Notes: generated by a model from the sequence alone, not told the origin. A stretch of DNA of 64,000 bases from a virus (IMGVR_UViG_3300045922_000503:1-64000), one strand, 5' to 3'. Counted from the first letter of the stretch, positions 1 through 43,313 are shown. Numbers and translations are program-made.

Positions 1-26
1 GCAGCGTTGTTGTTGTTGTTAGCCAT
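1..26 (-). CDS. Start of a small Asn-run protein (runs off left edge)
   Basis: Only the first eight or nine codons are in the window. They read Met-Ala followed by a run of Asn and then Ala, encoded by a GTT/AAC triplet repeat. The start is chosen because the 75 nt upstream are almost identical to those preceding the Met-Thr-Asn-run gene at 204-500, so the two are paralogous cassettes. A nonamer promoter candidate lies at 112-120. The function is unknown and the rest of the gene lies outside the window. Confidence 0.6.
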
Positions 27-98
27 GTTGCGTTCCCGGTGGGGCAAAGCCGGGTCCTCATTCGTTTTCTGCCCCTCGACTGCGAACCATTCGCAGTC
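24..98 (-). repeat. Duplicated 5' leader, copy 1
   Basis: This 75-nt block matches 498-572 at about 70 of 75 positions and covers the start codon and leader of the Asn-run genes. Read on the minus strand it begins with a perfect 9-bp hairpin at 78-98 (stem GACTGCGAA/TTCGCAGTC). The three loop bases are CCA here and TGG in copy 2 on the plus strand, as if the hairpin had flipped. Conservation of the stem while the loop inverts suggests the RNA or DNA hairpin itself matters. Confidence 0.85.
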
Positions 99-111
99 GT
101 ATTCCATAACT

Positions 112-120
112 ATTATGGGC
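112..120 (-). promoter_or_regulatory. GCCCATAAT promoter candidate
   Basis: On the minus strand this reads GCCCATAAT, one base at each end away from the GGCCATAAC element found before many transcription units in the window. It sits 13 nt before the leader hairpin at 78-98 and about 86 nt before the start codon at 26. The same CATAA core and following hairpin recur at 4369, 6098, 28314 and 53683. Confidence 0.45.
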
Positions 121-150
121 ACTTACGGCCCTATTTTAGTGGCGGAAGGC

Positions 151-200
151 TAAGACCACCCGAAGGTGTAGCCCCCTCCCCTTTGCCAGAGGGGAGGGGG
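151..200 (-). terminator. Stem-loop terminator block, copy A
   Basis: An 11-bp perfect stem at 172-182/190-200 (CCCCCTCCCCT against AGGGGAGGGGG, loop TTGCCAG) lies just 3' of the gene ending at 204. A small hairpin with a CGAA loop lies at 156-167. The whole block is repeated with changes at 585-637, after the next minus-strand gene. No long T-run follows, so it could also be an RNA-stabilising 3' structure. Confidence 0.6.
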
Positions 201-203
201 AGT

Positions 204-500
204 TCAGGCCCTGGCGGCCGCCTCGGCCGCCAGGGCGGAGGCTCGGGCGGTGGAGGCCCAGGCCTCCACCTGGGCGGCGGAGGACGCGGCGGCCTGGGCC
301 TCCGCCTCCCGGGCGTGCGCCCGGGTGGCCCGGGCGGCGGCCTGGGCGCACCAGGCGGCCCATCGGGCCCTATCCCGGGCGGAGGAGGCCGTCCGGGCAT
401 GGGCCGCCGCCGCCCGGGCGGCGGAGGCCACCGACCGGACGGCGGCGGCCGCCTCCCGGGGGGCGGAGGAGAAGGAGGTGGAGTTGTTGTTGTTAGTCAT
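204..500 (-). CDS. Asn-run, Ala/Arg-rich 98-aa protein
   Basis: The function is not recognised. The start at 500 is chosen because it gives Met-Thr-Asn-Asn-Asn-Asn-Ser and has the same leader as the partial gene at the left edge. After a Ser-rich head the protein is almost entirely Ala with regularly spaced Arg, His, Glu, Ser and Trp, consistent with one long helix or coiled coil. The coding DNA is extremely GC-rich and self-complementary: it has a 13-bp perfect stem at 208-220/224-236 and a 10-bp stem at 249-258/261-270 with a 2-nt spacer. The composition may be driven as much by these inverted repeats as by the protein. It is followed by a terminator block. It could encode a DNA-binding or structural helix, but that is a guess. 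Confidence 0.55.
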   Translation of the reverse strand: MTNNNNSTSFSSAPREAAAAVRSVASAARAAAAHARTASSARDRARWAAWCAQAAARATRAHAREAEAQAAASSAAQVEAWASTARASALAAEAAARA

Positions 501-572
501 GTTACGTTCCCGGTGGGGCAAAGCCGGGTCCTCATTCGTTGTCTGCCCCTCGACTGCGAATGGTTCGCAGTC
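498..572 (-). repeat. Duplicated 5' leader, copy 2
   Basis: This is the second copy of the 75-nt leader at 24-98, with a hairpin at 552-572 (stem GACTGCGAA/TTCGCAGTC, loop TGG on the plus strand). Unlike copy 1, no GGCCATAAC-type element lies upstream. The minus-strand sequence there instead reads CTACAAGATAT. The two cassettes therefore share leader, gene type and terminator but differ in the promoter. Confidence 0.85.
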
Positions 573-584
573 ATATCTTGTAGC

Positions 585-637
585 TAAGACCGCCCGAAGG
601 CGTAGCCTCCCTCCCCTTCGCCAGAGGGGGAGGGAGG
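585..637 (-). terminator. Stem-loop terminator block, copy B
   Basis: An 11-bp stem at 606-616/627-637 (CCTCCCTCCCC against GGGGAGGGAGG) is preceded by the same TAAGAC-CCGAAGG block as copy A. It lies just 3' of the gene ending at 649, so it marks the end of that minus-strand unit. A second, larger hairpin at 641-706 overlaps the stop codon. Confidence 0.6.
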
Positions 638-648
638 GACCCCCAAGG

Positions 649-1191
649 TCACCCTTCACACACCTGTCTCCAGGTGGATGTGAAGGTCCCCCCCATGACC
701 TTGGGGTCATACACCAGTGCGTTCGCGCACCAGAAGGTGCGCGACGCATTGGTGTCCTCAGGAGCCAGGTGGGGGTCCCACGGCTCCTGAGGGGACACAC
801 CGCCGCAGAAGGCGGTGACCAGGACGTACCGTCCTGGGATCACCTGCCCGCTGCGGCGGTCGCTGGCGGCGAATGCAATCACCGCCAGCAGGGACGATTC
901 GGGGCCCTCCGCCCCGACCGCAACCCGGGAAGCCCGGGCGCGAGCGGTGCGGAGGGCAAACGTGGTGGGCTCGTCCCAGCCCACCACGTCAGTCGCGACA
1001 AGGCCGCTCCGGCCAATGACGCGACCGAAGTCGACGTCAGTGACCATGAACGACCCGTCGCCGGGCAGGAGGAGGCGTTGCATCGCCTCCTCAATCACCT
1101 TGCCCACCTCAGGGTGGGCGATCAAGTGGTCTTTTGTTTTCGGGGGGACCACCATCACCCCGCCGCACCCTGTGCGGTAAAGATCTTGCAT
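649..1191 (-). CDS. Unknown 180-aa protein with hairpin-saturated coding DNA
   Basis: I do not recognise the family. The start at 1191 is chosen because GGAGGG lies 4-9 nt upstream; a longer reading up to 1350 lacks a ribosome-binding site. The protein is mixed alpha/beta in appearance with a Gly-Cys-Gly-Gly near the N-terminus and no membrane segment. Its coding DNA is remarkable for nearly back-to-back stem-loops: a 20-bp near-perfect hairpin at 711-755 with an AGAA loop, a competing roughly 20-bp hairpin at 752-798, a nested cruciform at 904-957, a 12-bp perfect stem at 960-989, and a compound hairpin at 641-706 across the stop codon. It is probably transcribed from the element at 1674. 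Confidence 0.8.
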   Translation of the reverse strand: MQDLYRTGCGGVMVVPPKTKDHLIAHPEVGKVIEEAMQRLLLPGDGSFMVTDVDFGRVIGRSGLVATDVVGWDEPTTFALRTARARASRVAVGAEGPESSLLAVIAFAASDRRSGQVIPGRYVLVTAFCGGVSPQEPWDPHLAPEDTNASRTFWCANALVYDPKVMGGTFTSTWRQVCEG

Positions 1192-1684
1192 TTGCCCTCC
1201 GTGGGCTTTTGCGACCCCATTGTCGCAGTACACGCACTGGGAATCGAACCCAGTCACAGCCGCCAAGGCGTGTAGTTGTCGAGTGCGTACATGATTTGAG
1301 CACGCTTTACCTCTTGCAGCAGGGGCTCGACACCTCCCGTAGAGCTGCAAGGGTTTGCCCTATTGCCGGGCCGGGTTCTCCTTTACCCCTCATGGCGGCA
1401 CGCGGCCACGTCTGGGTGTTGACGCGCCGATCCACGATGGAGATGGGGGGTACACTTCGCGTGCACCGAGCGCTTGTAGCCGCAGGGTCCTCGCTACAAG
1501 CCGAGGCCGGTGTTCAGGGTGTCCGGTCACCCGGGTCATCGAAGATGCGCATGGCGTCTCTTCTCCTCCCTCTGTGTACCTCTTTAGAGGCTCTGGGCTT
1601 GGGACCAGTGCGTGTGCTGACCGTCAGCAACGCAGCCACATTGAGGAGCGAGCAGATCAAGGACCTCGCAAGTGTTATGGCCAC
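1192..1684 (-). other. Long structured leader between promoter and 180-aa gene
   Basis: This 493-nt stretch has no convincing full-length gene. Reading on the minus strand from the promoter candidate at 1674-1682 it contains: a possible 12-codon peptide at 1514-1552 preceded by GGGAGGAGAAG; an 8-bp inverted repeat CTTGTAGC/GCTACAAG at 1473-1500; a closely similar one CTTGCAGC/GCTGCAAG at 1313-1351; a 28-codon open frame at 1307-1393; a 12-codon frame at 1254-1292; and a perfect tRNA-like T-arm at 1237-1253. I could not fold a complete cloverleaf. It may be a regulatory leader or a decayed tRNA region. Confidence 0.4.
1674..1682 (-). promoter_or_regulatory. GGCCATAAC promoter candidate
   Basis: This is an exact GGCCATAAC on the minus strand, ten bases beyond the end of the VWA gene and directed into the leader and the 180-aa gene. 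A GCGAG...CTCGC hairpin follows closely downstream. Confidence 0.5.
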
Positions 1685-3067
1685 TCACGTGCGGGCCTTG
1701 CCCCTGAACTGCTCGAACATCACGCCCCCTGTACCGGCCGCCAGCTTGGCCAGCTCCGGGTTCTTGGACTCCATCGCAAATCCGTGAACCCGGGTACCGG
1801 GGATGTCTGAGGGCTTGACGCCCTTGGCGGAGTTGTCGTCGTCGGTCAGGACGACGACTTCGGGGCGGTAGAGCATGGCCCCGCTGGCGACCTGCTCTTC
1901 TATGAACTTATGGGCAAACTTCACCGCCCCGGCGATGTCAGTACCGCCGCCACTGAAGCTGCCCTTGGTGAAGTCCCGAATGAGGGCGTGCGCCTCCTCG
2001 GGCGTGCTGGCGACGCGGACCCTCGACGAGGACGCGTCAAACACGCTGAGGTAGACCACAGCGTCCCCACTCAGGACCGCCTTCAGCCGGTTCATCACGA
2101 CACCTGTTGCCAGCAGGTGTCGTGATCCAAACATTGACCCGGACCCGTCCAGGGCGATGTAGATCGCCTGCCGGCGCTCTACACGCGTGACGCGCTCCCG
2201 TACCGGCAGCTGACCTGACACCGCCTGGTACAGGAAATAACCCGGGTTCTGCTGACGGGCCGCCCATGCTGTCGCCGGGACCTTTTGCAGTTCGTGCAGC
2301 CCCTTGATCGGGCGCTGACGAACCTCCGACCCCTCTGGGTCGGCCTCCACCTTCCGCTGCCTGCGCACTTGCAGCCTGGTGAAGCGGTCCAGGGTGCGGC
2401 TGACCTCTAGGATCAACCTGGCACCCTCTGGGTCGGCCATCTCCTGCGCGATCTGGGCCTCTTTGAGGTCCGGGTTGTTTTGGTTGGCCGCCCCCGTGGC
2501 CTTTTCCAACATCTCCCGTTCCTCTTCGGTCATGGACTCCACAATGTCCATGACCTCATTGATGTCGGAAGCCGGGTCCGCGGCCTCCGACGAGAAGATG
2601 GGGAGCGGCTGGCCCTCGCCGCTCCCCGAGCCCCCCTTCATCTTGGACAGCATGGCCAGAATGGCCACTGCCTTCTGAAGGGGGGTCGAGCCAGGAGCGG
2701 AGTCGTAGTTGAGCGAGTCAACAAACTCCGTCACCCGGCGGTTGTAGTTTTCCACCGCCATCAGGTGGGCCTTGATGGCGGTGGAATACACTGAGGTTAC
2801 CCCGCCCGACCCCCCGGGGAAGGCTCCCGCGACTGACCGCGGGATCTCCCACCGCGAAGCTGCGGGGTCCAGCTTCGCCTCCACCTCTTCGCGCAGATCG
2901 GCGCGATAGGCGGAGAGGGGGACGGTTTGGCCGCCGGCGGCCATCCGGGCTAGGTCCGTGACTAGGTCACGGCTGTAGCCCTTTAGGCCGACGGCGGCGG
3001 CCGCCTCTTTCATCTCCTCGACCGTGGGGTCGAGGAAGTCCAGAGGCGCTTTAGTCCGCCTTGACAT
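1685..3067 (-). CDS. VWA-domain protein, partner of the adjacent MoxR-type ATPase
   Basis: The 460-aa protein has a C-terminal von Willebrand factor A domain. The metal-ion-dependent adhesion motif is at residues 307-311 (DGSGS), followed by a GGGTD loop and a VVVLTDDD strand. The N-terminal 250 residues are helical and partly acidic. The start at 3067 is set by GGAGG six bases upstream; an ATG 12 bases earlier lacks such a site. VWA proteins of this layout (CobT, ViaA, CoxE-like) work with AAA+ ATPases in metal insertion or complex remodelling, and the next gene upstream is such an ATPase. The coding DNA carries many perfect stems, including 14 bp at 2750-2763/2773-2786 and 13 bp at 2094-2106/2114-2126. 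The substrate is unknown. Confidence 0.88.
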   Translation of the reverse strand: MSRRTKAPLDFLDPTVEEMKEAAAAVGLKGYSRDLVTDLARMAAGGQTVPLSAYRADLREEVEAKLDPAASRWEIPRSVAGAFPGGSGGVTSVYSTAIKAHLMAVENYNRRVTEFVDSLNYDSAPGSTPLQKAVAILAMLSKMKGGSGSGEGQPLPIFSSEAADPASDINEVMDIVESMTEEEREMLEKATGAANQNNPDLKEAQIAQEMADPEGARLILEVSRTLDRFTRLQVRRQRKVEADPEGSEVRQRPIKGLHELQKVPATAWAARQQNPGYFLYQAVSGQLPVRERVTRVERRQAIYIALDGSGSMFGSRHLLATGVVMNRLKAVLSGDAVVYLSVFDASSSRVRVASTPEEAHALIRDFTKGSFSGGGTDIAGAVKFAHKFIEEQVASGAMLYRPEVVVLTDDDNSAKGVKPSDIPGTRVHGFAMESKNPELAKLAAGTGGVMFEQFRGKART

Positions 3068-3151
3068 GCTGTCCTCCATGGTGACAGCTCTCCCGGGAAC
3101 AGCCGGGCCTGTGCGCCTCTTGGGGGGCGCTGCCCCGTCTCGCGATCAGAA

Positions 3152-4276
3152 TCAGATCTTTGTTTCGCTGATCGCGAGCTCCTGCAGGCGAACCGCCTGC
3201 TTCTGTGCTTCCGCCCGGGCGGCGCCCACCCGGGCCTTCAGGTCGTCTGGAAGCGACTTGAAAGTCGCTTCCGTTGCCTGAATGAGCCGCTTGGAAGCCT
3301 GTAGAAGCTTGATTGGAGACCCAGAGTTCTGGGCCTCCTTGCCGGCGGCCAGGAGGCCGTTCACCTCCTGGATCCACCGGGACACTACGCCCTCCGCAGC
3401 GGCCCGCTCCGCGGCGGCGGCGATTTCTTCTTCCACCCCGGCAGCCAGGCTGCCGAGGCCGTCCACGAATCGGAGGGCCAGGAGGTCCTCCTTCCGGGGG
3501 GAGCCATGGCCGTTCATCGCCGCCTGGGCGCGGACCACCCCGGCGGCGTGGACCGCTGTTCGGGGCGACACAGGCCGTCCCCCCTCAGCCCCCGCCTTCG
3601 CGAGTAGCTGGGCGAGGACGGGGGTCATGTCCCCGATCTTTGCCCCGGGGACTGCCTCCAGGAGGCGGAGGTAGTCCCCGGCTTCATACTTCTCCCACTC
3701 CACGCGAAGCTGGAGCGGGAACCTCTCAATCAGGGCATGGGCTGCGGGGCCCATGTCGCTGATATCTTCCGGGTCTTTGTTGGTCAGCCCGACGACGACC
3801 CGGGTCTTCATCGGGAACCGCTGCGCGCCCTTCCGCAGCTCCTTCGCGGTGAGGGTGTCCTTCAGGGCGAGAAGGACACTCGTGGGAGCGTCGAACAGCT
3901 CCTCAAACACCGCCCACTCGGCGTTGAGGAAGGACCTCTCCGGGTGGTACCGAAGTACCTTCTCCGTCTCCAGGGCAGTAAAGTCCAGACCGCCCCAGAG
4001 CGTGGCCTCGTCCATGCCCTCTCCGAAGGATTGGACGAATACGTCTGCTGAGGCGGCGGCCACCCGCCCCAGCCCCACGCTGGTCATCTCGCTCTTGCCG
4101 TGGCCAGCGGGGCCCCACAGCAAGAGGTTCTTCCCGCTGGCGATGGCCAGCGCCAACGCCGACGCGAATGCGTCGGCATAGACGAAACCGGCCGCCTCAA
4201 GGGCGGCCAGGATCGTCTGCCTAAGGTTGGCAGAGGAAGAAGAAGAAGAAGAAGAAGCAGAGATGCGCGCGTTCAT
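3152..4276 (-). CDS. MoxR/CobS-like AAA+ ATPase
   Basis: The 374-aa protein has a Walker A GPAGHGKS at residues 55-62, a Walker B-like acidic stretch (VFEELFD) and a sensor region with TNKDPED followed by an arginine-containing ERF. This order fits the MoxR/CobS branch of AAA+ proteins. Residues 7-15 are Ala followed by a Ser run encoded by a GAA/TTC triplet repeat. AGGGG lies just upstream of the start. It is the first gene of an operon with the VWA gene and is preceded by a promoter element at 4369. Perfect hairpins recur in the coding DNA, for example GGAAGCGACTT/AAGTCGCTTCC at 3249-3272 and an 11-bp stem over the stop codon at 3139-3178. The role (remodelling or metal chelation) is inferred from the family. 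Confidence 0.9.
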   Translation of the reverse strand: MNARISASSSSSSSSANLRQTILAALEAAGFVYADAFASALALAIASGKNLLLWGPAGHGKSEMTSVGLGRVAAASADVFVQSFGEGMDEATLWGGLDFTALETEKVLRYHPERSFLNAEWAVFEELFDAPTSVLLALKDTLTAKELRKGAQRFPMKTRVVVGLTNKDPEDISDMGPAAHALIERFPLQLRVEWEKYEAGDYLRLLEAVPGAKIGDMTPVLAQLLAKAGAEGGRPVSPRTAVHAAGVVRAQAAMNGHGSPRKEDLLALRFVDGLGSLAAGVEEEIAAAAERAAAEGVVSRWIQEVNGLLAAGKEAQNSGSPIKLLQASKRLIQATEATFKSLPDDLKARVGAARAEAQKQAVRLQELAISETKI

Positions 4277-4340
4277 AGCAACCCCTGCCAGCTATTGCCG
4301 CTGGCGAGCGATGGGCAGGCTATTGGTGCCTGCATGAAGA

Positions 4341-4377
4341 CTGGGAGCCATTCCCAGCTGTCAATGTTGTTATGGCC
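4341..4377 (-). promoter_or_regulatory. GGCCATAAC promoter plus leader hairpin
   Basis: The exact nonamer is at 4369-4377. A CTGGG/CCCAG hairpin with an AATGGCT loop lies 11 nt downstream at 4341-4357. This is the same arrangement as at 6098, 19510, 28314 and 53683. It would drive the MoxR-VWA operon. Confidence 0.6.
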
Positions 4378-4433
4378 AACTCCTTGAAACCTAACAGAAA
4401 ACTTCAGTTGATTCCGAAGTTTTCCAGCACGGC

Positions 4434-6050
4434 TCACACGCCCGTGCAGTAGTACAGAGCTTCTCGAAGATCGTAGACGTTCATCTCCGTTCTCCCGCTC
4501 ATGGCCATGCAGGACACCGCCACAGAGAGGATCATCTCTTTATTTCGGCCGAACCGCAGGGCGATCTCGGCCTCCTTCGCAAAGACAGGGTCGCGATCTG
4601 CCTCAGGAAGACCGGGCGCCCGGTGCCCGATGATCTTCCGAGCTTGGCGGACTGCTTCGGCGATCGACGCGCTGGTGCGCAGGCCGAAGTCTCTTGCGTC
4701 GGGTGCCGGGGGCCCATCTGCCGGCATGTGAACCAAGATGGGGCTGGTAGCCGTAGCAGGGGCGCTACAGAACGTTGGGTCTACCTCGTCGAGGGTTACA
4801 GTGTACACGACCAGGGGCCTGTCACTGCGCCTGACATCAGGATCTTGGCGCGTATCCGCAATCCAGCTGTCCCATGCGAGAGGCAGGCTGCCCTTTCCTG
4901 TGGGGGAAGCGGTACCTTCCCCGGATACCTCCTTCGAGAACATGTCCGCTTCGTCCAACAGCAGGATCCCGTGCGCGGCAGCTTCGACCTCTCCGAGGTG
5001 AGCTAACCCCCTTTCCCGCCGCCCGTACATCGCCCGCTTGGTTGCTGTGTAGTGAGGGGCGCGCAGAGGCCGGTGTACCGGGTTCCACTTCCCCCTAAGA
5101 AGCATATCTTGATACTCCTCCAACGTAGGGGGGCTGGTGCAGGAGGGACGGTAGCCCGTCTGCCTGCGTGCCTCAAAGGGCAGACATGCCAGATACCACC
5201 CCAGGTCCTCACCAGAAAGACCTGTTAGAGGGTCCGTTTCCCCGGCCAAGGGTGGCGGGAAGATGCTGGCCATCCTGCTTGCCAGCATGACTCTACCGCA
5301 CCCCCAGTGCCCGCTGAGGATGACGTCGTGTCGCCCGGCGACCGCTACTGCAGCGGCTCTGAGCACCCAAGGGAATAGCCCGACTTTCTTCCCGCTGCCC
5401 GGCGGAATGACACAGATGTCCGCCATGTCTTTCTCATGCAGGAAGGACGTCCGCAAGGACCGCTCTGGCGGGGGGCAGACCGCGGCTAACGCCTCTGGAA
5501 GGCTCTTCAGGTTGTCTACCAGCACCAGATCTGCCATTGCAGTCATCTGGCTGTCGAGCAGTACAGAGGACTTGCGGGGAGAAGGCAGCACGAGCCGTAC
5601 CCGCTCCCCTGTCTCCCTGTGGCGCTGGCGCACCCAGCGAGCCAGTAGGCCGTCACAGCCGCGCATGAAAGCTTCTCCCACCTTATCTATGGCCCCGACG
5701 AAGTAGGTCCTGCTCATCTGGTCCAGGTCGTTAGGGATGATTCCTGCTGCCAGCAGGACTGCCGCTGCTACGGGGAAGCTCAGAACGTCCTCTTCCTTAG
5801 CAGGGACGCTTTCTAGATCCGTATCCGGGTAGGATACGCACGCCTTCAGGTGAAAAGGTCCCGAGAAGCGATGGCCAAAACTGGAGCGCAGAGCGAGCGC
5901 GACTACCTCCGCCAGTTGCTTAGCTGCGTCCTCAGTGTACACCCCTTCTACGCGGAAAGGCTGGATGGCCGGGTCTTGACTCACTTGGATGGGTACCACA
6001 ACCCCAAGGTGGTCAAGGTGAGGAATGACGGCGTTGACGACGGTATTCAT
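4434..6050 (-). CDS. ComM/Mg-chelatase-like ATPase with degenerate Walker A
   Basis: The 538-aa protein follows the ComM/YifB plan: an N-terminal Lon-like domain (about residues 1-200), then a Mg-chelatase AAA+ core. The region RPLRAPHYTATK aligns with the ComM signature RPFRSPHHS, and a clear Walker B (ILLLDEAD) is present. The Walker A position, residues 247-254, reads GHWGCGRV: the catalytic Lys is Arg and the following Ser/Thr is Val. ATP hydrolysis is therefore doubtful. ComM proteins are branch-migration helicases in natural transformation; Mg-chelatase I subunits insert metal into porphyrins. It has its own promoter element at 6098 and is divergent from the fibre gene. Whether it works with the nearby MoxR-VWA pair is inference. 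Confidence 0.82.
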   Translation of the reverse strand: MNTVVNAVIPHLDHLGVVVPIQVSQDPAIQPFRVEGVYTEDAAKQLAEVVALALRSSFGHRFSGPFHLKACVSYPDTDLESVPAKEEDVLSFPVAAAVLLAAGIIPNDLDQMSRTYFVGAIDKVGEAFMRGCDGLLARWVRQRHRETGERVRLVLPSPRKSSVLLDSQMTAMADLVLVDNLKSLPEALAAVCPPPERSLRTSFLHEKDMADICVIPPGSGKKVGLFPWVLRAAAVAVAGRHDVILSGHWGCGRVMLASRMASIFPPPLAGETDPLTGLSGEDLGWYLACLPFEARRQTGYRPSCTSPPTLEEYQDMLLRGKWNPVHRPLRAPHYTATKRAMYGRRERGLAHLGEVEAAAHGILLLDEADMFSKEVSGEGTASPTGKGSLPLAWDSWIADTRQDPDVRRSDRPLVVYTVTLDEVDPTFCSAPATATSPILVHMPADGPPAPDARDFGLRTSASIAEAVRQARKIIGHRAPGLPEADRDPVFAKEAEIALRFGRNKEMILSVAVSCMAMSGRTEMNVYDLREALYYCTGV

Positions 6051-9502: not shown

Positions 9503-11124
9503 TGACTGCCATCTATAGCAAGATCAAAGAGCAGGCACTCGCGGCCACGAAGCGTCTCGCCCTCTCCAGCGTCCTGGCTGCTGGGGCAGGCAACGAAATG
9601 GCTCTGGAGGTCGCGGCCAGTGCCTTCAATATCCGGACGGGGCCTGAGCAGGCGTCGTCCTGGGGACTTCTGCTACGGCTTGGCACGAGGCTGCGTAAGT
9701 CGTCCTCCACCGTCTCCTATGAAGTCAGGCTGTTCTGTAGGGACGCCAATTTCTGGGGAAAGGGGGCGAAAGAGCCGGTCCCGGCGTACGTTCTGCTGAC
9801 AGCGGTGGACCGGCAGGCAGACCAGCACTACCCGCTGGTTAGGCAGAAGATCCGGGCGTCCTCCATTGACGACGCGGTAGGGCAGGCGCTTCAGAGGGTC
9901 CAGTCCAAGAGGACCCAGGGGCACACGGTCTGGTCCCTGCTGGAGAATCCTTCAGAAGGAATGAATCTCCTGCCCTGGTGGGCGGGAACCATGGATTCTC
10001 CGCCTGCCCCCAGAGACTCAGAGGATCGCCGGCAGGCCGCAGCATCGTGCCAGGTGGAACAGGCGTACGCCTCCCTGCCTCCCATCGATGACTTCCCTGC
10101 GGAGGAATCCAAGCCATCCGCAAACCTTCTTCTCCCCTTTACGGACGAGGTGAAGGCCGAACCTCCTCCTCCTGACTACTGGGGCGGGCCCATCTGGACG
10201 CGCGTCAACTCCATCCTCGATGCGCGGAGGACCCAGCCAGCGAGGCTGCCAATTATTCTGGTCGTCGACACAGAGACCACGGGTCTCGACGCCACGGAGT
10301 CAGTGGTGACTGAACTGGGAGTCGCCGTATACAGCCTCGCACCCGAGCATGACCGCTGTTCTGGGCTGCTGATGCAGATGAGCACGATGATGGGAGGGGC
10401 GCTTACATCCTCTAAGTTCGTGCCAGCCGACGTGGACACGACTGCACCAGTCACAGGCATCTCGTCTGAGGGGTTCATTCCTGCAGCGAGATGGACAGGT
10501 TCGCAGGGATGGATGGAAGAGCGGGTCTTGAGCCTCTTCTCTCATGAAGACGTGGTTGCGGTCCTCGCCCACAACGCCGCCTTCGACCGGGCGTTCGTCG
10601 ACCCTCTGCTCCCTGAAGAGATCAGAGAGGACGGCAAGCGCCCCCTGCTGTGGATTGACACAGCGTTCACGCGCCCTTGGGGCAAGGCACAGTTCATGGG
10701 AGACAGGACCAATCTCCGTGACTTGGTCCTGTCCCACAAGCTGGGCATCTCCAGCGCACACAGGGCGCTGGCGGACGTGGATATGATCACCCGGGTTCTC
10801 GACCTCTACACGGAGGATGAGTATGGGGACCCCACAAGGGTCGACCTTATCGACTGCCTCTGGAAGGAGAGTCAGCACCTGTGGTGGGACCCTAACGACC
10901 CCGCTGTGCAAGTCGTGGTTCACGTGTCGTACGAAAGCAGGGACGTGCCCAAGGGACTGGGGCTTCAGTGGGACCCGGAAAACAAGAACTGGCGCAAGAT
11001 CTGCCGTCAGTCGGACGTCAAGGCCATCCGGGACAGGATTCACCACCCGGATAAGGTCTTCTACGAGATCTTGGGCGTGAAGGAGGCTATCGCTCTCCGC
11101 AACAAGGCGCTCATCCGCCGATGA
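9502..11124 (+). CDS. DnaQ-like DEDDh 3'-5' exonuclease
   Basis: In this 540-aa protein the exonuclease domain occupies roughly residues 250-430. Exo I is DTETTG with Asp256 and Glu258. Exo II is in AHNAAFD. Exo IIIepsilon is the SAHRALADVDM segment with the His-x4-Asp of the DEDDh class. The N-terminal 230 residues are not recognised and include a Glu/Pro-rich linker. The C-terminal 80 residues, with a WDPENKNWRK stretch, are a small accessory domain. It could proofread for a phage polymerase encoded elsewhere, or process DNA ends. It is coupled to the preceding gene and ends exactly at the convergent portal gene. Confidence 0.9.
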   Translation: MTAIYSKIKEQALAATKRLALSSVLAAGAGNEMALEVAASAFNIRTGPEQASSWGLLLRLGTRLRKSSSTVSYEVRLFCRDANFWGKGAKEPVPAYVLLTAVDRQADQHYPLVRQKIRASSIDDAVGQALQRVQSKRTQGHTVWSLLENPSEGMNLLPWWAGTMDSPPAPRDSEDRRQAAASCQVEQAYASLPPIDDFPAEESKPSANLLLPFTDEVKAEPPPPDYWGGPIWTRVNSILDARRTQPARLPIILVVDTETTGLDATESVVTELGVAVYSLAPEHDRCSGLLMQMSTMMGGALTSSKFVPADVDTTAPVTGISSEGFIPAARWTGSQGWMEERVLSLFSHEDVVAVLAHNAAFDRAFVDPLLPEEIREDGKRPLLWIDTAFTRPWGKAQFMGDRTNLRDLVLSHKLGISSAHRALADVDMITRVLDLYTEDEYGDPTRVDLIDCLWKESQHLWWDPNDPAVQVVVHVSYESRDVPKGLGLQWDPENKNWRKICRQSDVKAIRDRIHHPDKVFYEILGVKEAIALRNKALIRR

Positions 11125-35015: not shown

Positions 35016-35081
35016 CCCCTGTAGCGCCTCGTCGCCAGGTGCTGTATGAAGGTTGCCACCCCGTCTCGGACAGGAGAGGAC

Positions 35082-38000
35082 ATGGCACCCCCCTACGACA
35101 TCGACGACTTCGAGAACACCGCTGCTGACCCCAACGCGGGGTGGGAAGGAGGCCCTCCTGTAGGCATGGAGAAGGTCTCCAGGACGGAGCGAGACAACTA
35201 CCCGAGGTCTGCCCCATCCGCGATGCTGTCCGACCGCCCCATGACCCCCCAGGAAGAGGAGCGGCGGCGCATCATGAGGTCCCTTGAGGACCCTCGCGAC
35301 ATGGCGAGAGACGTCGTGAACAAGACCGTCTCCGCGCTGGACCGAACGTTCGCAGACCCCATCTCCGGCGGTCGGTACCGGGTAGAGCGCGTGGGAGATC
35401 TCATCGTAGAGGACATCCCTGACCCTTGGGACCACGCCGCCGTTGCTGACACCATCGCCAGGGACGGGACCTACGGGCCGCTCGTCAAGGGCAGATTCCG
35501 CATCCTCGACACCAAGGAGACGGACGCCGACGGGAACCCCAAGGTGGTCAAGGAGCAGGTCATCAACCTGGCCCGAGTGCCCACGCCAACGGCAGACCGG
35601 GCCTACGTGGTAGGCGGAAAGAAGCGGGCCATGATGAGCCAGTTCCGGCGACTCCCCGGCGTGTTTACCCGGACCAACGCTAAGGGGGAGACGGAGCTCG
35701 AGGCCAACCTGGACCCGTCGACTTCGTCTCAGCTCCCCAGCTTCAAGGTGGTCTTGGACCGAACGACCAATGACACAGCCACCCCGTTCAAGATGCGCAT
35801 CGGGACCATGAAGTCCGGGGACGCGTGGCAGGTGGCCAAGCTCCTGGGAGCTGACGCGAAGGACCTGAAGGAGGCCGTGGGGGAGGAGACGGCGGCCAAG
35901 ATCCTCAAGACGGACTCCAAGGATCGTTACGAGCGCGAGATGCGCAAGCTGTACGGTAAGATCCATGCTGCCGACCGCGGGGGCATGGGCAAGACCAACG
36001 CCAAGCACCTACCTCTGGGGGAGATCGAGGCTGACCTCATGAAACAGTTCACCACGTCCTACATCTCCCCGGAGGTCAGCAAGATGACCTTGGGGAAAGA
36101 GACGGACCGCGTGGACAAAGACGTGCTTCTCACTGGGTTCCGACGTCTCCAGGCTGTGGCGTCCGGTGATGAAGAAGAAGACGACCGTGAGTCGCTCGCG
36201 CTGAAGCAGGTCATGGGGCCAGCCGACCTGATCGCGGAGTCCGTAGGCCGGTCCTCAACGGTGGAGAAGAACCGGCGCGCCATGTCGTCTAAGCTGAGGG
36301 CGCTGACTTTCAACAAGGACGCCAACCCGAACCTGGCGCAAATCGTCGGGCCACGCTTTCGCAAGGCCATCGAGGCAAAGACCTCCACCTCGATGGAGCA
36401 GCGGACTCTGGACTCCACGACCCCTATCGACACCATCGCCCAGGCTACTACGACCACCATCCTGGGAGCAGGCGCCATCGGCAGCGAGCAGGCCATTCCT
36501 GATGAAGCCAAGCTGCTGAACAGTGGCGGCTTCGGTTTCCTGGACCCTCTTCACACGCCGGAGAGCGCGCGGTCGGGCGTGGTGCTTCACAAGCCCATGA
36601 GGACCGGGGTCAAGACAGTCGAGACGGGGAGAGCCTCTCAGCCGACGATCAACGTCTTGACGTCCGAGTTCCTCGACCGGAGCGGGAAGCCACTGGAGCT
36701 CTCCTCTGCGGAGGTGAAGGGCAAGCCCATTGGGCTCTTCGACCAATACGACCGGGGCGAAGACGGGAAAATCAAGCCTAAGAACCTCCCCGGCGGCGTG
36801 GTCAAGGCACTGGTGGACGGTCAGGTCAAGCTGGTTGACCCCAAAGAGATCAGCGTGTGGGCCCAGGACGCTGGGCAGGCGTTTGACATCAACTCCAGCC
36901 TCATCCCTTTCGCCAACTCCATCTCCGGCGGGCGCGTCGGCTACTCCAGCAAGCAGACTCAACAATCACTGCCCCTGAAGTACCGGGAAGCGCCGTTGGT
37001 GCAGGTCCGCGCTCCTGGTTCCGCCAACTCGATGGAGGCCCTGCTGGGAGAAGAGGCAGGCGCGGTCAACTCTCCTGTAGACGGCACCATCGTCGACATA
37101 GTGGACACGCCCAAGAAGAGGACGGTGACCATCAAGCCGAAAGATGGGGGCAAGGACATCACCCTCTCCGTCCCCCACAACATCGCCATGCCTGGTGGCT
37201 CGCTGATGGACAGTGAGATGAAGGTCAAGCAGGGTGACTCCGTCTCAAGGGGGCAGCTCATCGCGGACTCTACCTTTACCAAGGATGGAGTCATGGCTGC
37301 AGGGACGAACCTGCGGGTCGCCTACCTCCCCTACTACACGTCGACCTTCGAGGACGCCATCGTCCTCAGCAAGTCGGCGGCTGACAAACTCACGTCCCTT
37401 CACATGTACGAAGAGAAGGTGAGGGGCAAGGGCGTGGATCTGGGCAAGAGCCTGTACGTAACTCGCACAGGTACTCCGCTGTCCAAGGAGGAGGACGATA
37501 GCATTGGGGACGACGGAATCGTCAAGGTGGGGACGCGCGTCAAGCCAGGGCAGCTGCTGGTCGCCGGCTCTCGCTCTCAAGCCATGACCGGGTCTGACAT
37601 TGAGACCGCGGCTGCACTGCTGGGTCTATACGGGACCAAGAACAAGCGAGGCGTCACCACCCGAGTCGCGGAGTTTGAGCAGCGCTGGGATCACCCCGTC
37701 GAAGGGACAGTGAAGCGGGTGGAGCCCATCGTGAAGGGAGGCAAGACGGTAGGAGCCACGGTCTACGTCGAGGCGGAGGAGCCCTTCGAGGTGGGAGACA
37801 AGATCTTCGGCCGCCACGGGAACAAGGGCATCGTCACAGAGATCATTCCTGACGATAAGATGCCCAGGACGAAGGACGGCAAGGCCATGGACGTGCTGCT
37901 GAACCCGGCCGGTGTCGTGGGGCGAATCAACCCGTCTCAGAACTTCGAGAACTTTCTCGGGAAGGTCGCGGAGAAGAAGGGGTCTCCCGAGGTTGTCGAC

Positions 38001-41000
38001 AACTGGAAGTACCAGGACAACTGGCAGCATGTGAAAGACACCCTCGAGAAGGAAGGCGTGGCCGACGCCGAGGACCTCATCGACCCTGTCACAGGACGGG
38101 TGCTGAAGTCTGTTGGCTTCGGCAACCAGTACATCCTGAAGGCCAAGCAACAGGTGGAGCATAAGTCCTTGGCACGCGGCGTGGGGACGTTCTCTGAGTC
38201 AGGCAGCGTGGTGAAGGGTGACGACGGCGCACAGGCGCTGGGCGAGCTCGGAGTCTACGCGCTCCTGGCGCAGGACGCCCGTGAGTTCCTGCGGGACGCC
38301 CAGCTCAACAAGTCCGAGGACCGCCCCGAAGTGTGGGATGCTCTTCGGCGGGGGTCTCCCATCCCGCCGGCGGTGCAGCCACCTGAGCAGTTCCAACGCT
38401 TCCAGGACTACCTCACCGCCGCCGGCGTTGTCATGGAGCGCAAGGGTGACAAGATGAAGCTCACCCGCCCCGTGACCGATGATGAGGTCAAGGCTACGGC
38501 GCAGACGTTCGGGAAGGACAACGTCCTGACGGAGCCTTGGAAAACGGTTCGGGTCAAAGCCAAGGACAGCGCGGAAGACGGGGTGTCCCGCACCGAAATC
38601 ATGGAGAAAGGAGGGCTATTCGACCCGGACGCTACGGCCGGGTTCCAAGGGACGAAGTGGTCCAGGTTCAGCCTCTCCACGCCCATCCCCAACCCGACTT
38701 ACGAGCAGCCCATCATGGACCTGCTCGGCATGAGCGCCAAAGAATACGAGGATCTCCGTACAGGCGTCCGAGCGGTCGAGGTAGACGGGAAGAAGCTTAC
38801 AGGAGCACGTGCCGTCGACACCCTGCTGAGCAAAGTGAACGTCGACGCCATCGAGGCAGAGACAAAGACTATCTTGGAGCAGAGCAAGGACAAGTCTGAG
38901 AGAAACCGGGCGTACCGGCTCGCCAGAAACATCAAGATGCTCAAGGAGAACAACCTTGACCCGCAGAAGGCGTACATGCGGCAGGAGGTCCTCGTGCTGC
39001 CTGCCCGGATGAGGGGAGTCTCAAAGGACGAATCCACCGGCGATCTGGTCATCGGGGACATCAACTACCTCTACCGGGACATTGCCCTTACTGAGAAGGC
39101 TCTTCGGGATGCCAAGGCTCAGAATCTCCCGGACACGATCATCAGTGAGCTGGAAACGGGGCTCTACGAGGGGGTCCGGGCGCTCAACCAGGTGCAGAAG
39201 TCCGAGCCGCTCAGTCCCGGCTCGACCTACCAGGGCATCTTTGGCATTCTCGCAGGCCGGATCCCGACTGGCGACGGCGGAGAGGTGTCAGACGTCAAGT
39301 CCAGCTTCGCCAAGAAGAACCTACTGGAGCGCCGGCAGGTCATGAGCGCCCGGACCGTCCTGACGCCCAAGGATGACTTGGATATGGACGAGGTAGGTGT
39401 CCCCCGGCGGGTGGCCGCCGCGGTCTTTGAGCCTTTGCTCGAAGCGGAGTTCCACCGGAACCACGACATGCAGTCGACTCGTGGGCGGGAGGAATTCAAG
39501 CAGTTCCGGGATAGACTGCAGGAGTACAAGGCGACCAACACGCCCGACGAGATGATCGACAGGTACCTGGACCGGGTAGTGGCGGACAGGTACGTCGCTG
39601 TGAAGCGGGACCCTGCTCTTCACATGTTCAGCTTTCAAGGGTTCAAGCCCGTGCTCAGCCGGGAGAAGACTGTCAACTTGAACCCCCTCGTGTACGCTGG
39701 CTTCAATGCGGATAACGACGGCGACTCCGTACTTGGTCGGGTGACTTTGTTCATCGGAGACGGCGGCGAAGTCGAGCCTACGACTATGGACATCTCCTGC
39801 TTCCCCCATGTGCCGGGGTCAGAGCGCGTGTCTGAGAAGGGGACGCGGGTCTACGACGTTCCTGCTGGCATCCGGGTGCCTGCTATCCACCCGGATGGAA
39901 CCGAAGTGCTGGCAGAGGTCACAGAGTGGTCTGTCCACGAGGACGTGGACACCTACTTCGTGCGGTTGGCGTCAGGCCGGTCCATGATTGTGTCCGGAGA
40001 CCATAGCCTGTGCACTCTCAGCCTGGACACCATGCAGGTGGAGAAGACTCGGCCCCAGGATGCAGTGGGTCGTGCGGTGCCCGTGCAGGTGCAGTACGAT
40101 TGCGCCAACGGCGCAGAGGAGCACCCGGCGTTCGGTGCGCCGTCGTTCCTTCGCACGGATGAGGACACCGGGTGGCTGATCGGTATCATTCTGTCGCAGG
40201 GATGGATTGGGGCGGACGCCAGAGGGCGGCCTCACCGCATCCAGCTGCCGTGGCACGACGCACAGGCGCCTTCTATCCAGGGTGTCCACGACGACATCAA
40301 GCGTATCGTGAGCACGTACACCCTGAACGCGTTCACCTTCCAGGATGTCAGATGGGCACCACGGGCAGCAGCGGCGAGGCTGGGCGGGTCCAGGGCATTG
40401 ATCCTGGAACCCGACCTGGCGGCTGCGGTGGCTGACGCCGTCCAGTGGCAGCCCGAGGACAGCGCGCGCGGGTATCGCTTGGCCCCGTGGGTGTTTACAG
40501 CTTCACGCTCCTTCCGGCGAGGTCTGCTGTCGGGCATCTTCGACGGCCGGGGGGGCGTCCCCCACGGCGCCCACCGGAAGGATGCAACCAGCCTGCTGAT
40601 CACGATCCCGCCGGACTACCCCGACGCTCCAGGCCTTGCCCGGGACGTCGCGCTCCTCGCGGAGTCACTGGGTGCGGGGGCAACGATGACCAACAATGCC
40701 CGGGGTCAGTACCTGGTCACAATGGCCAACGTCGCCCCAGTCCTCCGCCCACGCCACCCGGAGACGAAGGAACGCGTCGATGTCATTCTGGCGTACAGCC
40801 GAAAGATTCTGGGCGATGCAGACCCCGTTCGCATTCCTGTGCCATCATCCGTCCGTAAGGACCTGATCCACGCTCTGTCCTCCTTGGGGGCTACATCCCC
40901 CCGACGACGAAAGAACGAAGAGGTGTCTGCCGCGGCAGCTATTTGGTACTGGGCGGTCAAGAACCGCACAGCGCAGGGGGGGTGGCCGACCCGGAAGTTT

Positions 41001-43313
41001 CTGGCCGAGCTGTTGGAGTTCTTGCTGGAGCACGCCCAGGAGGACCAGACTGCCCTGCTGAGAGACGCGACCAGGTGGTGTGAGTCGGTGCACCAGTCGT
41101 CTGTCTCATGGGACGAAGTGGTTGAAGTGAAGAGCCTCAACCAGAAGACGACCATGTACGACCTCACTGTTCCCGGGCCGTACACCTTCGCCATGGCGAC
41201 AGGTGCCTACGTATGGGACACGCTGGCCATTTACGCGCCGGTGAGCCCGGAAGCCAACCGGGAGATCCGGGACAAGATGCTGCCCAGCAAGAACCTGTTC
41301 TCTCATGCCAGCCACCAGGTTGAGCACGGTATCAGTCACGAGGCCATCCTGGGCCTCGCGCGCATGACGAAGCCGCCGACGGGAGACATGAGCAAGCCCA
41401 AAGCGAAGTTTGCCAGCGTCGCGGAGGCGGAAAAGGCATTCAACGCCAACGAGATCGATGTTACCGATCCCATCTCTATTGGCGGGCAGAACACGACGCT
41501 TGGGAGGGCGCTTATCAACGCGGCTCTGCCGGCGGGCACCACCTTGGAGAGCCTGCAGGCGGCTGGGGTCATCTCCGCGCAGGGAGACTTCGGCATCGAC
41601 AAGAAGAGCGTGGGGAATATCAACCGCTGGCTCGCTGTTGAGCATCCCAACGCCTATTCCCAGGTGGCCAACACGCTGCGAAAGACTGGGCAGAAGTACG
41701 CCACCCTCACCGGCTCCTCCATCCGGCTCGACGACCTCAAGCCCATCGTGAAGCAGGAGCGGGAAGAGGCTGAACAGGCCATCTTCAAAGCCGTGGCGGA
41801 GATCAACAAGGAGACTGCCCCCAACTCCAAGGAGAGGAAGGACCGAACGGCAGGCGTGTTCTCAGAGTGGATCAACAAGGTCAACGCGTCCGCTAAGCCA
41901 GTCATTCATGCCGCCACGGATAACGTCAACGTCGAGCTGACGGTCACCGGCGCTCGCATCAAGCCTACCCAGCTTCAGCAGGTCATCCAAGCCCCTATGG
42001 CAATGACGGACACCAAGGGGGACGTCATTCCTTCGCCAGTGATGCGCTCATACTCAGAAGGGCTGGATGGCGGTGGGTATATGGCATCCCTGCCTGGAGC
42101 CCGGTCCGGCACGGTCGCGAAGGTCCAGCAGGTGCAGGAGCCCGGCTACCTCACCAAGCAGGTCGTCAACACCGTCATCGACCAGACGGTAGCAGAAGAG
42201 GACTGCGGCACCACCCGAGGGGTGGAAGTTGACCTGAGCAGGCCCAGCCAGGACACAACGAATCGCTACCTCGCTCGCGATGTGCAGGTCGGAGGGACCA
42301 CGTACCCCAGAAACACGCTCCTGACGGAACAGCTCACGTCTGAGATCAGTCGACAGAGCTCTGGCGTTGCCAAGGTGCTCGTCCGGTCCCCGCTCACGTG
42401 CCAGACCAGGGGAGGGGGCGTCTGCCAGAAATGTACAGGTACCTTGCCCGGCGGTAAGGCGATGCCTGTGGGACACAACTTCGGCATCACTTCCGCTCAG
42501 GCCATTGGGGAGCGCTCCACGCAGATGATGCTGAGCCTCTTCCACGAGGGCGGAGTCTTCAACCCTAACGCGGGCACTGGCGCCCGCGATGTCTACAAGC
42601 AGGCGTCTGCTTTTCTTCGGATGCCCAAGGGGATGAACGGGATGGAGGCAGTGGTGAGCGACCGGGACGCTACGGTCACGATGGTCAAGGAGAACAAGTC
42701 CAAGGGAGGCATTGACGTTCACTTCGACTCTGGGCGCCCCATGTTCTTCAAGAACGAAGTGAAGTCTCCATCCGGCGGCGACATTCGAGACTTCCTCTCC
42801 GTGGGCAAGAAGGTGACCAAGGGGGAAATCCTGACTGAAGGCGTCGCCAACCCCAAGGTCTTGTTGGAGGCTACAGGAGACATGGGGAGGGTGCAGAACT
42901 ACATCGTCGACAACCTCGGGGAGCTCTACGCTGGCACGGGGGTCAAGCGACGAAACGTAGAAGCGCTGGTCCGGGGCATCACGGGCACCGTAGAGGTGAC
43001 GAGTGCTGGACGTAGCAACTACATGCCTGGCCAGCGTATCTCTGCGGTCGAAGCGGAGGACATGGCGGCAAAGGACCGTCAATTCAAGTTCAAGCCTGTT
43101 CTCATGGGAGTCGACGTGGCCCCTAAGGAGGCACGAGAGGACTTCCTGGCTCACCTCAACTTCAACGACATCCGCCGGCAGTTGGTCACGGGGGCAGCCA
43201 TCGGCGCGGAGAGCGATCTGCACGGAACTAACCCTATCCCGGGGCTCTTCTATGGTGTAGAGTTCAATCGGCAGTTCCAGTTCGGGCCTGCCTCCACTGA
43301 CGGAACCTACTGA
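35082..43313 (+). CDS. Fused beta-beta' RNA polymerase with intein
   Basis: The product is 2743 aa; the start at 35082 has AGGAGAGG upstream. The beta half includes GQLIADS, the AGTNLRVAYLPYYTSTFEDA segment and EVGDKIFGRHGNKG (about residues 905-916). The beta' half includes a rudder/zipper-like FAKKNLLERRQVMSARTV, the metal-binding loop NADNDGD at 1542-1548 (bacterial form NADFDGD), CQTRGGGVCQKC zinc-like cysteines and the trigger-loop segment SAQAIGERSTQMM (about 2471). An intein interrupts the catalytic loop. Alpha, omega and sigma equivalents are not visible. It may read the GGCCATAAC promoters or be packaged in the virion: residues 30-33 (EKVS) only weakly resemble the cluster signature. 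Multisubunit-type phage polymerases are usually split; a single-chain fusion is notable. Confidence 0.95.
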   Translation: MAPPYDIDDFENTAADPNAGWEGGPPVGMEKVSRTERDNYPRSAPSAMLSDRPMTPQEEERRRIMRSLEDPRDMARDVVNKTVSALDRTFADPISGGRYRVERVGDLIVEDIPDPWDHAAVADTIARDGTYGPLVKGRFRILDTKETDADGNPKVVKEQVINLARVPTPTADRAYVVGGKKRAMMSQFRRLPGVFTRTNAKGETELEANLDPSTSSQLPSFKVVLDRTTNDTATPFKMRIGTMKSGDAWQVAKLLGADAKDLKEAVGEETAAKILKTDSKDRYEREMRKLYGKIHAADRGGMGKTNAKHLPLGEIEADLMKQFTTSYISPEVSKMTLGKETDRVDKDVLLTGFRRLQAVASGDEEEDDRESLALKQVMGPADLIAESVGRSSTVEKNRRAMSSKLRALTFNKDANPNLAQIVGPRFRKAIEAKTSTSMEQRTLDSTTPIDTIAQATTTTILGAGAIGSEQAIPDEAKLLNSGGFGFLDPLHTPESARSGVVLHKPMRTGVKTVETGRASQPTINVLTSEFLDRSGKPLELSSAEVKGKPIGLFDQYDRGEDGKIKPKNLPGGVVKALVDGQVKLVDPKEISVWAQDAGQAFDINSSLIPFANSISGGRVGYSSKQTQQSLPLKYREAPLVQVRAPGSANSMEALLGEEAGAVNSPVDGTIVDIVDTPKKRTVTIKPKDGGKDITLSVPHNIAMPGGSLMDSEMKVKQGDSVSRGQLIADSTFTKDGVMAAGTNLRVAYLPYYTSTFEDAIVLSKSAADKLTSLHMYEEKVRGKGVDLGKSLYVTRTGTPLSKEEDDSIGDDGIVKVGTRVKPGQLLVAGSRSQAMTGSDIETAAALLGLYGTKNKRGVTTRVAEFEQRWDHPVEGTVKRVEPIVKGGKTVGATVYVEAEEPFEVGDKIFGRHGNKGIVTEIIPDDKMPRTKDGKAMDVLLNPAGVVGRINPSQNFENFLGKVAEKKGSPEVVDNWKYQDNWQHVKDTLEKEGVADAEDLIDPVTGRVLKSVGFGNQYILKAKQQVEHKSLARGVGTFSESGSVVKGDDGAQALGELGVYALLAQDAREFLRDAQLNKSEDRPEVWDALRRGSPIPPAVQPPEQFQRFQDYLTAAGVVMERKGDKMKLTRPVTDDEVKATAQTFGKDNVLTEPWKTVRVKAKDSAEDGVSRTEIMEKGGLFDPDATAGFQGTKWSRFSLSTPIPNPTYEQPIMDLLGMSAKEYEDLRTGVRAVEVDGKKLTGARAVDTLLSKVNVDAIEAETKTILEQSKDKSERNRAYRLARNIKMLKENNLDPQKAYMRQEVLVLPARMRGVSKDESTGDLVIGDINYLYRDIALTEKALRDAKAQNLPDTIISELETGLYEGVRALNQVQKSEPLSPGSTYQGIFGILAGRIPTGDGGEVSDVKSSFAKKNLLERRQVMSARTVLTPKDDLDMDEVGVPRRVAAAVFEPLLEAEFHRNHDMQSTRGREEFKQFRDRLQEYKATNTPDEMIDRYLDRVVADRYVAVKRDPALHMFSFQGFKPVLSREKTVNLNPLVYAGFNADNDGDSVLGRVTLFIGDGGEVEPTTMDISCFPHVPGSERVSEKGTRVYDVPAGIRVPAIHPDGTEVLAEVTEWSVHEDVDTYFVRLASGRSMIVSGDHSLCTLSLDTMQVEKTRPQDAVGRAVPVQVQYDCANGAEEHPAFGAPSFLRTDEDTGWLIGIILSQGWIGADARGRPHRIQLPWHDAQAPSIQGVHDDIKRIVSTYTLNAFTFQDVRWAPRAAAARLGGSRALILEPDLAAAVADAVQWQPEDSARGYRLAPWVFTASRSFRRGLLSGIFDGRGGVPHGAHRKDATSLLITIPPDYPDAPGLARDVALLAESLGAGATMTNNARGQYLVTMANVAPVLRPRHPETKERVDVILAYSRKILGDADPVRIPVPSSVRKDLIHALSSLGATSPRRRKNEEVSAAAAIWYWAVKNRTAQGGWPTRKFLAELLEFLLEHAQEDQTALLRDATRWCESVHQSSVSWDEVVEVKSLNQKTTMYDLTVPGPYTFAMATGAYVWDTLAIYAPVSPEANREIRDKMLPSKNLFSHASHQVEHGISHEAILGLARMTKPPTGDMSKPKAKFASVAEAEKAFNANEIDVTDPISIGGQNTTLGRALINAALPAGTTLESLQAAGVISAQGDFGIDKKSVGNINRWLAVEHPNAYSQVANTLRKTGQKYATLTGSSIRLDDLKPIVKQEREEAEQAIFKAVAEINKETAPNSKERKDRTAGVFSEWINKVNASAKPVIHAATDNVNVELTVTGARIKPTQLQQVIQAPMAMTDTKGDVIPSPVMRSYSEGLDGGGYMASLPGARSGTVAKVQQVQEPGYLTKQVVNTVIDQTVAEEDCGTTRGVEVDLSRPSQDTTNRYLARDVQVGGTTYPRNTLLTEQLTSEISRQSSGVAKVLVRSPLTCQTRGGGVCQKCTGTLPGGKAMPVGHNFGITSAQAIGERSTQMMLSLFHEGGVFNPNAGTGARDVYKQASAFLRMPKGMNGMEAVVSDRDATVTMVKENKSKGGIDVHFDSGRPMFFKNEVKSPSGGDIRDFLSVGKKVTKGEILTEGVANPKVLLEATGDMGRVQNYIVDNLGELYAGTGVKRRNVEALVRGITGTVEVTSAGRSNYMPGQRISAVEAEDMAAKDRQFKFKPVLMGVDVAPKEAREDFLAHLNFNDIRRQLVTGAAIGAESDLHGTNPIPGLFYGVEFNRQFQFGPASTDGTY
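39726..41219 (+). other. Intein with LAGLIDADG endonuclease in the polymerase active site
   Basis: The intein is 498 residues (1549-2046 of the polymerase), inserted exactly between NADNDGD and TLAIYAPVS, the halves of the conserved beta' catalytic loop. It starts with Ser (SVLG, block A). Block B is VSGDHSLCT with the usual His. Block F is MYDLTVPGPYTF. It ends in Trp-Asp before Thr+1, whereas inteins normally end in His-Asn. Two LAGLIDADG-like helices are visible: WLIGIILSQGWIG and RGLLSGIFDGRGG; the first has Gln where the catalytic acid is expected. Splicing must work for an active polymerase, so the unusual C-terminus probably still supports it. Boundaries are inferred from the extein alignment. 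Confidence 0.88.

Follow-up and report, generated by a model that had tools for sequence, protein, structure and literature searches.

Why should a short run of viral genes be filled with long stem-loops, many of them perfect? The question is raised by the left end of the virus record IMGVR_UViG_3300045922_000503 (99,249 bp in total), whose first 64 kb, 64,000 nucleotides (nt), are the stretch of DNA analysed here and called the window. A preliminary description had noted that four genes in this region, at 204-500, 649-1191, 1685-3067 and 3152-4276, are saturated with inverted repeats, and proposed that folding of RNA or DNA had been selected inside them. The longer three encode a member of the phrog_23674 family, a protein with a von Willebrand factor A (vWA) domain and a MoxR-type AAA+ ATPase. 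A computational follow-up leads to an explanation that carries about even weight for and against: the genes belong to an RNA-structure island. In this view a small cassette that has spread horizontally, made up of these three genes and small accessory ORFs (open reading frames), has a transcript that is selected for folding throughout and cut by ribozymes into armoured messenger RNAs (mRNAs) that resist ribonucleases (RNases).

The first step is to ask whether there are more stems than composition predicts. Counting perfect inverted repeats of at least 9 bp with loops of 3-20 nt gives 22 stems in positions 1-4400, where 200 dinucleotide shuffles lead one to expect 0.54 and reach a maximum of 3. 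The remaining ~95 kb of the record holds 20 such stems against 8.7 expected. Stem density falls off abruptly near 4424, and the excess includes the spacers as well as the genes first named. Every stem listed in the preliminary description is present, exactly or within a few bases (Table 1).

Within genes, the comparison was made with synonymous shuffles keeping either codons or dinucleotides (300 shuffles, so that p has a floor of 0.003). The phrog_23674-family gene has 4 stems against 0.2-0.5 in shuffles, the vWA gene 7 against 0.5-0.7, and the MoxR gene 3 against 0.3, each with p = 0.003. Shuffling does not reproduce equal numbers of stems in any of these three genes, and their saturation is borne out. 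So is the reported freedom of the reductase and polymerase genes from excess: both are at shuffle expectation, as are about 20 further phage genes. For the ORF at 204-500 the claim stands in part, by folding energy (Table 1) and not by stem count, which is not significant against codon shuffles (p 0.17-0.53).

Is the folding a property of this virus only, or of the gene set? Searched for MoxR, bacterial and archaeal genomes gave 20 homologs, 41-58% identical, mostly in metagenome-assembled genomes (MAGs) of Patescibacteria; the other carriers are Elusimicrobia, Spartobacteria and one contig labelled Methanosarcinales. The vWA gene lies beside MoxR in nearly all homologous loci, and a phrog_23674-like gene, with homologs in 15 MAG loci, is near it in most. 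Local folding energy was measured in 90-nt windows and expressed as a z-score against synonymous codon shuffles (fold z). Averaged over the window together with some 18 MAG loci, fold z is -7.0 for MoxR, -8.0 for vWA and -6.4 for phrog_23674, and nearly every cassette shares the excess. ORFs that flank the cassettes in the MAGs, 73 in all, have a median of -1.2, with clear host genes near 0; AAA_5 paralogues from the same genomes (19 loci) average -0.8, and the other genes of the phage -1.8.

In sliding windows, most loci show islands of about 5-6 kb that end abruptly and include the spacers. The islands are GC-rich relative to the host in most loci, and the fold excess is found in cassettes across hosts of differing GC content. 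A TrmB-type regulator often adjoins the cassettes, whose multi-gene content is fixed. Among 287 Patescibacteria genomes sampled, just 5 carry this MoxR; the distribution of the cassette is thus sporadic, and horizontal spread is probable. The contig labelled Methanosarcinales (L059, QMVM01000243.1; L numbers denote the loci compared) carries a Patescibacteria-type cassette with a TrmB-type neighbour, and may be mis-binned.

The next step is to decide between RNA and DNA. Among relatives, the sense strand shows more excess than the antisense strand in 17 of 18 MoxR genes, 16 of 18 vWA genes and 15 of 15 phrog_23674-like genes (Wilcoxon p < 1e-4, a value that is indicative because the loci are related), and host genes have no such bias. 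This sense-strand excess, together with the ribozymes and covarying leader found in the spacers and the lack of excess in neighbouring host genes, argues that folding in the gene family is selected on RNA. Selected folding inside genes, originally put forward for either nucleic acid, thus has support, with RNA rather than DNA as the selected molecule in the gene family.

The amount of structure is conserved among relatives, and individual stems mostly turn over; the expectation that stems would be conserved therefore holds for the amount and only weakly for single stems. A hairpin at the Walker A motif coincides with one in L043, and a hairpin at V-L-L-A-L-K-D-T with one in L049. At predicted pairs, 363 of 806 two-sided changes keep pairing (45.0%), against 322 expected (40.0%; p 0.002). 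Conservation at the protein level is 0.465 in stem arms against 0.480 elsewhere, and in the two further comparisons 0.419 against 0.443 and 0.316 against 0.406. As the arms show no clear loss of protein conservation, the stems are mainly synonymous choices. The possibility that they are inserted palindromic elements was rejected, as the arms fall equally on conserved residues.

Evidence for how the transcript may be processed comes from the spacers. The twister candidate of the phage (Table 1) matches Rfam RF03160 with 37.1 bits (E 1.8e-4, whole window and all families). It is full-length, with the core aligned (GGUCCCAAGCCC, UAAA and GAGGGA), and is the only such match in the 99-kb record. 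Relatives have type III hammerheads (RF00008), which keep the CUGANGA...GAAA core as their three stems vary in concert. The match in L058 is above the gathering score of 48.5 bits, and five others, at 36.8-45.7 bits, are below it. Hammerheads lie between MoxR and vWA in L051, in both spacers in L046, and near the cassette in L042, L045 and L058; among 11 MAG genomes searched, 6 of 7 matches are at the cassette.

A covarying leader, type B, is found just upstream of MoxR in L042 (3834-3950) and 14 other loci, and a motif model trained on 13 loci detected it in L067 and L053, which had been held out. It has no match in Rfam and is absent from the phage. A second leader, type A, occurs in L041, L043, L046, L049, L051 and L057.

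In the window, and likewise in L041, L042, L046, L049 and L051, single genes lie between direct repeats. The repeats of L041, around vWA, are 98% identical over 181 nt. Hammerheads of relatives often lie within such repeats, as in L046. The two spacer repeat copies of the window are 89-93% identical. Copy 1 has hairpins, among them a UUCG-tetraloop hairpin at 591-602, and a possible pseudoknot before the start codon. The tetraloop hairpin reads CGCC-UUCG-GGCG in copy 1 and CACC-UUCG-GGUG in copy 2, a compensatory two-sided change. The minihelix, as read from the sequence, lies shortly upstream of the 649-1191 gene and may be a site of processing; it has a weak mascRNA-like score in Rfam, and ARAGORN finds no tRNA at 1228-1275. 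A further ORF, starting MANNNNNAA at 1-26, follows a copy of the spacer repeat that also precedes ORF 204-500. It is truncated by the left contig end, and the island continues off the record.

Table 1. Positions of the structured region, its genes, spacer elements and stems in the window
Feature	Position	Strand	Remarks
RNA-structure island	1-4424	-	right boundary near 4424; left boundary is the contig end
MoxR-type AAA+ ATPase gene	3152-4276	-	fold z: sense -12.3, antisense -9.7 (synonymous shuffles)
vWA-domain protein gene	1685-3067	-	fold z, sense: -10.6; Pfam VWA_2 1.6e-6
phrog_23674-family protein gene	649-1191	-	180 aa; fold z, sense: -11.1; PHROG match 1.3e-12
Ala-rich ORF	204-500	-	98 aa; fold z: -3.6
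Twister (type P1) self-cleaving ribozyme candidate	1564-1647	-	strand of the genes; vWA to phrog_23674 spacer
tRNA-like minihelix	1228-1275	-	7-bp acceptor-like stem and T-arm CTGGGTTCGATTCCCAG, read from sequence
Spacer repeat, copy 1	483-636 (483-576 and 583-636)	-	between the 649-1191 gene and ORF 204-500
Spacer repeat, copy 2	9-202 (9-102 and 149-202)	-	downstream of ORF 204-500, upstream of truncated ORF MANNNNNAA
Stem, 13 bp	208-236		
Stem, 12 bp	711-755		one mismatch; encloses 9 bp at 723-744
Stem, 11 bp	756-792		core of 752-798
Stem, 13 bp	904-957		one mismatch
Stem, 12 bp	960-989		
Stem, 13 bp	2094-2126		
Stem, 10 bp	2528-2555		
Stem, 10 bp	2600-2627		
Stem, 14 bp	2750-2786		
Stem, 11 bp	3139-3178		spans MoxR stop and spacer
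Stem, 10 bp	3249-3272		
Stem, 8 bp	4158-4177		

The cassette proteins are related to known families. MoxR matches Pfam bpMoxR (PF20030) at 1.1e-13, with 51.2 bits against a cut-off of 27, and AAA_5 too; its Walker A motif is GPAGHGKS. The AlphaFold2 model of the vWA protein (predicted local distance difference test, pLDDT, 84.7) matches vWA domains and the NorD protein of NorQD. The DxSxS motif of the metal site is present as DGSGSM and is conserved, and the gene adjoins MoxR. For the model of the phrog_23674 protein (pLDDT 92.8), no fold match was found in the PDB. PADLOC has no match for the proteins of the window.

A second, divergent structured island occurs in another Patescibacteria genome (L117:4152-10501 and L122:51-3512), where only a hammerhead led to it and its structure was established afterwards. 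Its genes include one for a further bpMoxR ATPase and one in which a phrog_23674 domain is joined to AAA-Csx3. Csx3 is a CRISPR-associated family. Both flanks are unstructured: one has FtsW- and MurG-type genes, the opposite one other genes. Several other hammerhead loci are unstructured, and ribozymes alone therefore do not imply islands. Moderately structured genes adjoin hammerheads at L120:2167-5042, which includes a DUF350 protein, and at L116:1-1368.

How could these features fit together? The best reading is a mobile cassette of the MoxR-vWA type, active in conflict or as a chaperone, whose genes are expressed as separate, armoured mRNAs. A long transcript would fold during synthesis, and ribozymes, twister-like in the phage and type III hammerheads in relatives, would cut it into single-gene RNAs. 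Cleavage would leave 5'-hydroxyl and 2',3'-cyclic-phosphate ends, and these ends together with the hairpin-saturated bodies would slow attack by RNases, resistance to which is the preferred reading of the folding. The RNases may be those of the host, those released by infection, or the activity of the conflict or chaperone system itself, and armouring would pay during infection or if the system acts via RNA cleavage. The Csx3 fusion and the kinship with bpMoxR point to a role in conflict; the literature on jumbo-phage MoxR-vWA pairs points instead to virion assembly (PMC7824862). The preliminary description had suggested protection against nucleases, pausing or genome compaction; of these, compaction is unsupported, as the same islands also occur in bacterial chromosomes.

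Several observations weigh against this armoured-mRNA explanation. The sense and antisense excesses of the phage are about equal (-8.4/-8.2, -7.4/-6.7 and -14.6/-15.1 kcal/mol per 90-nt window), so the choice of RNA over DNA is drawn from the relatives and not from the phage alone. Mismatches within stems, counted over all loci, lean slightly toward G.U (22) over A.C (13), which is not decisive. The closest viral relative, L010 (MoxR 45%), is the sole one found; it is without stems and has a fold z of -2.1. GAP32-type jumbo phage genes are likewise unstructured, and the proteins of the cassette thus do not require folding. The twister candidate scores below the Rfam gathering score of 67.2, ribozymes are recognised in only part of the cassettes, and hammerheads occur elsewhere in Patescibacteria (25 of 287 genomes), some in unstructured surroundings.

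Other explanations account for parts of the evidence. The folded transcript could be a functional RNA, a structural or guide-like part of a ribonucleoprotein with the MoxR, vWA and phrog_23674 proteins, resembling ribosomal RNA in its high GC content and dense pairing. Coding and non-coding parts are both structured, the leader is conserved, and the GC content exceeds that of the host, as is the case for stable RNAs in AT-rich genomes. This remains unlikely: a functional fold should conserve its architecture, and here individual stems are poorly conserved and the compensatory excess is small. Less likely again is a cause at the level of DNA, either template switching in replication or retention of the repeats for cruciform or single-strand folding. 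In its favour, the stems of the phage are nearly perfect and strand-symmetric, and in a few, such as those at 2750-2786 and 2094-2126, one arm is conserved and the other varies; the sense bias of relatives, the mostly synonymous nature of the stems and the adjacent genes without stems on the same replicon argue otherwise.

Slightly less probable still is a mobile RNA, similar to retrozymes or viroids, in which cleavage and ligation would give circular coding RNAs that persist or spread in RNA form and return to DNA via a reverse transcriptase acting in trans. Direct repeats around single genes (vWA in L041, and L046 with its hammerheads) and the sporadic distribution, 5 of 287 genomes, would fit; no reverse transcriptase (RVT_1) or integrase was found in the phage record, and the cassette has a fixed content of several genes, often beside the same TrmB-type regulator. 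An integron-like array, in which gene and repeat form a recombining cassette with hairpins as attC-type sites, is highly improbable despite the existence of gene-plus-repeat units, given that no attC-like R''-R' core occurs in 13 spacers, no tyrosine integrase is in the record, and stems fill the coding sequences. An artefact of composition or assembly, suggested by high GC at third codon positions and the location at a contig end, is just as improbable and indeed refuted, as controls preserving codons or dinucleotides do not reproduce the excess, the ORFs are intact, and independent assemblies and loci show the same feature.

Parts of the armoured-mRNA cassette can be compared with known systems. 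Genome-scale ordered RNA structure (GORS) of RNA viruses is a pervasive folding of coding RNA whose amount, and not position, is conserved. The cassette is similar in all these respects and differs in being encoded in DNA (a double-stranded DNA phage and bacterial chromosomes), confined to one gene set and sharply bordered. Hammerheads of prophages flank single genes, and long transcripts have been proposed to be cut there into single-gene mRNAs (PMC3088659, 2011). The self-cleaving ribozymes in spacers around individual genes are alike in both; in the present case a single structured island takes in genes and spacers, a spacer of the phage holds a twister-like ribozyme, and no description of folded coding sequences was found in that work.

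The adjacent MoxR and vWA genes recall RavA-ViaA, NorQ-NorD and jumbo-phage MoxR-vWA pairs (PMC7824862), with the vWA model matching NorD in particular, and the bpMoxR match recalls bpMoxR conflict systems (PMC7159879). Unlike in those systems, the partner is the phrog_23674 protein. A beta-propeller, the third component of ternary MoxR-vWA-beta-propeller conflict systems, was not identified in those genes of the cassette that were compared with Pfam and PHROGs (the contig is cut at the left, and some genes were not scanned). No report of RNA structure or ribozymes was found for them. Like retrozymes and ribozyme-bearing circular RNAs (PMC4918200, PMC7761336), the cassette has structured RNA flanked by direct repeats with hammerheads; unlike them, it is a protein-coding, multi-gene unit, with no reverse transcriptase found in the phage record.

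Beyond the island, a Mg-chelatase ChlI-like ATPase lies directly upstream (4434-6050), with an ordinary stem count and a fold z of -3.5. A single ORF of 2755 aa at 35046-43313 encodes a fused RNA polymerase, with beta-type subunit matches along its length; it is nearest to Vibrio phages D69 and D181, at ~27% identity. The record also encodes a large ribonucleotide reductase, whose relatives are distant and without the cassette. No close viral relative was found in phages or IMG/VR through the vWA, MoxR and phrog_23674 proteins, the RNA polymerase or the spacer pattern. On the phage contig L010, an Rfam match to transfer-messenger RNA at 11008-11083 spans a model of 374 positions in only 76 bases.

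No report of folded-gene islands was found in the literature searched, and the combination of such an island with ribozymes appears to be new. These loci could represent a new kind of genetic element, islands of phage and bacterial DNA with sharp borders in which a whole multi-gene operon is selected for transcription as a pervasively folded, ribozyme-trimmed RNA that forms a second functional product of its protein-coding genes, although slightly more speaks against this than for it. RNA viruses are well known for coding RNA that folds along its length; the genes of DNA phages and bacterial chromosomes are not. What self-cleaving ribozymes do in bacteria has long been asked. Were the armoured-mRNA reading true, these ribozymes would be tied to a concrete function, the making of RNase-resistant single-gene messages, and fold excess over synonymous shuffles would be a signature by which further systems could be found. 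The results suggest that in this gene set the messenger RNA, besides the proteins, is under selection.

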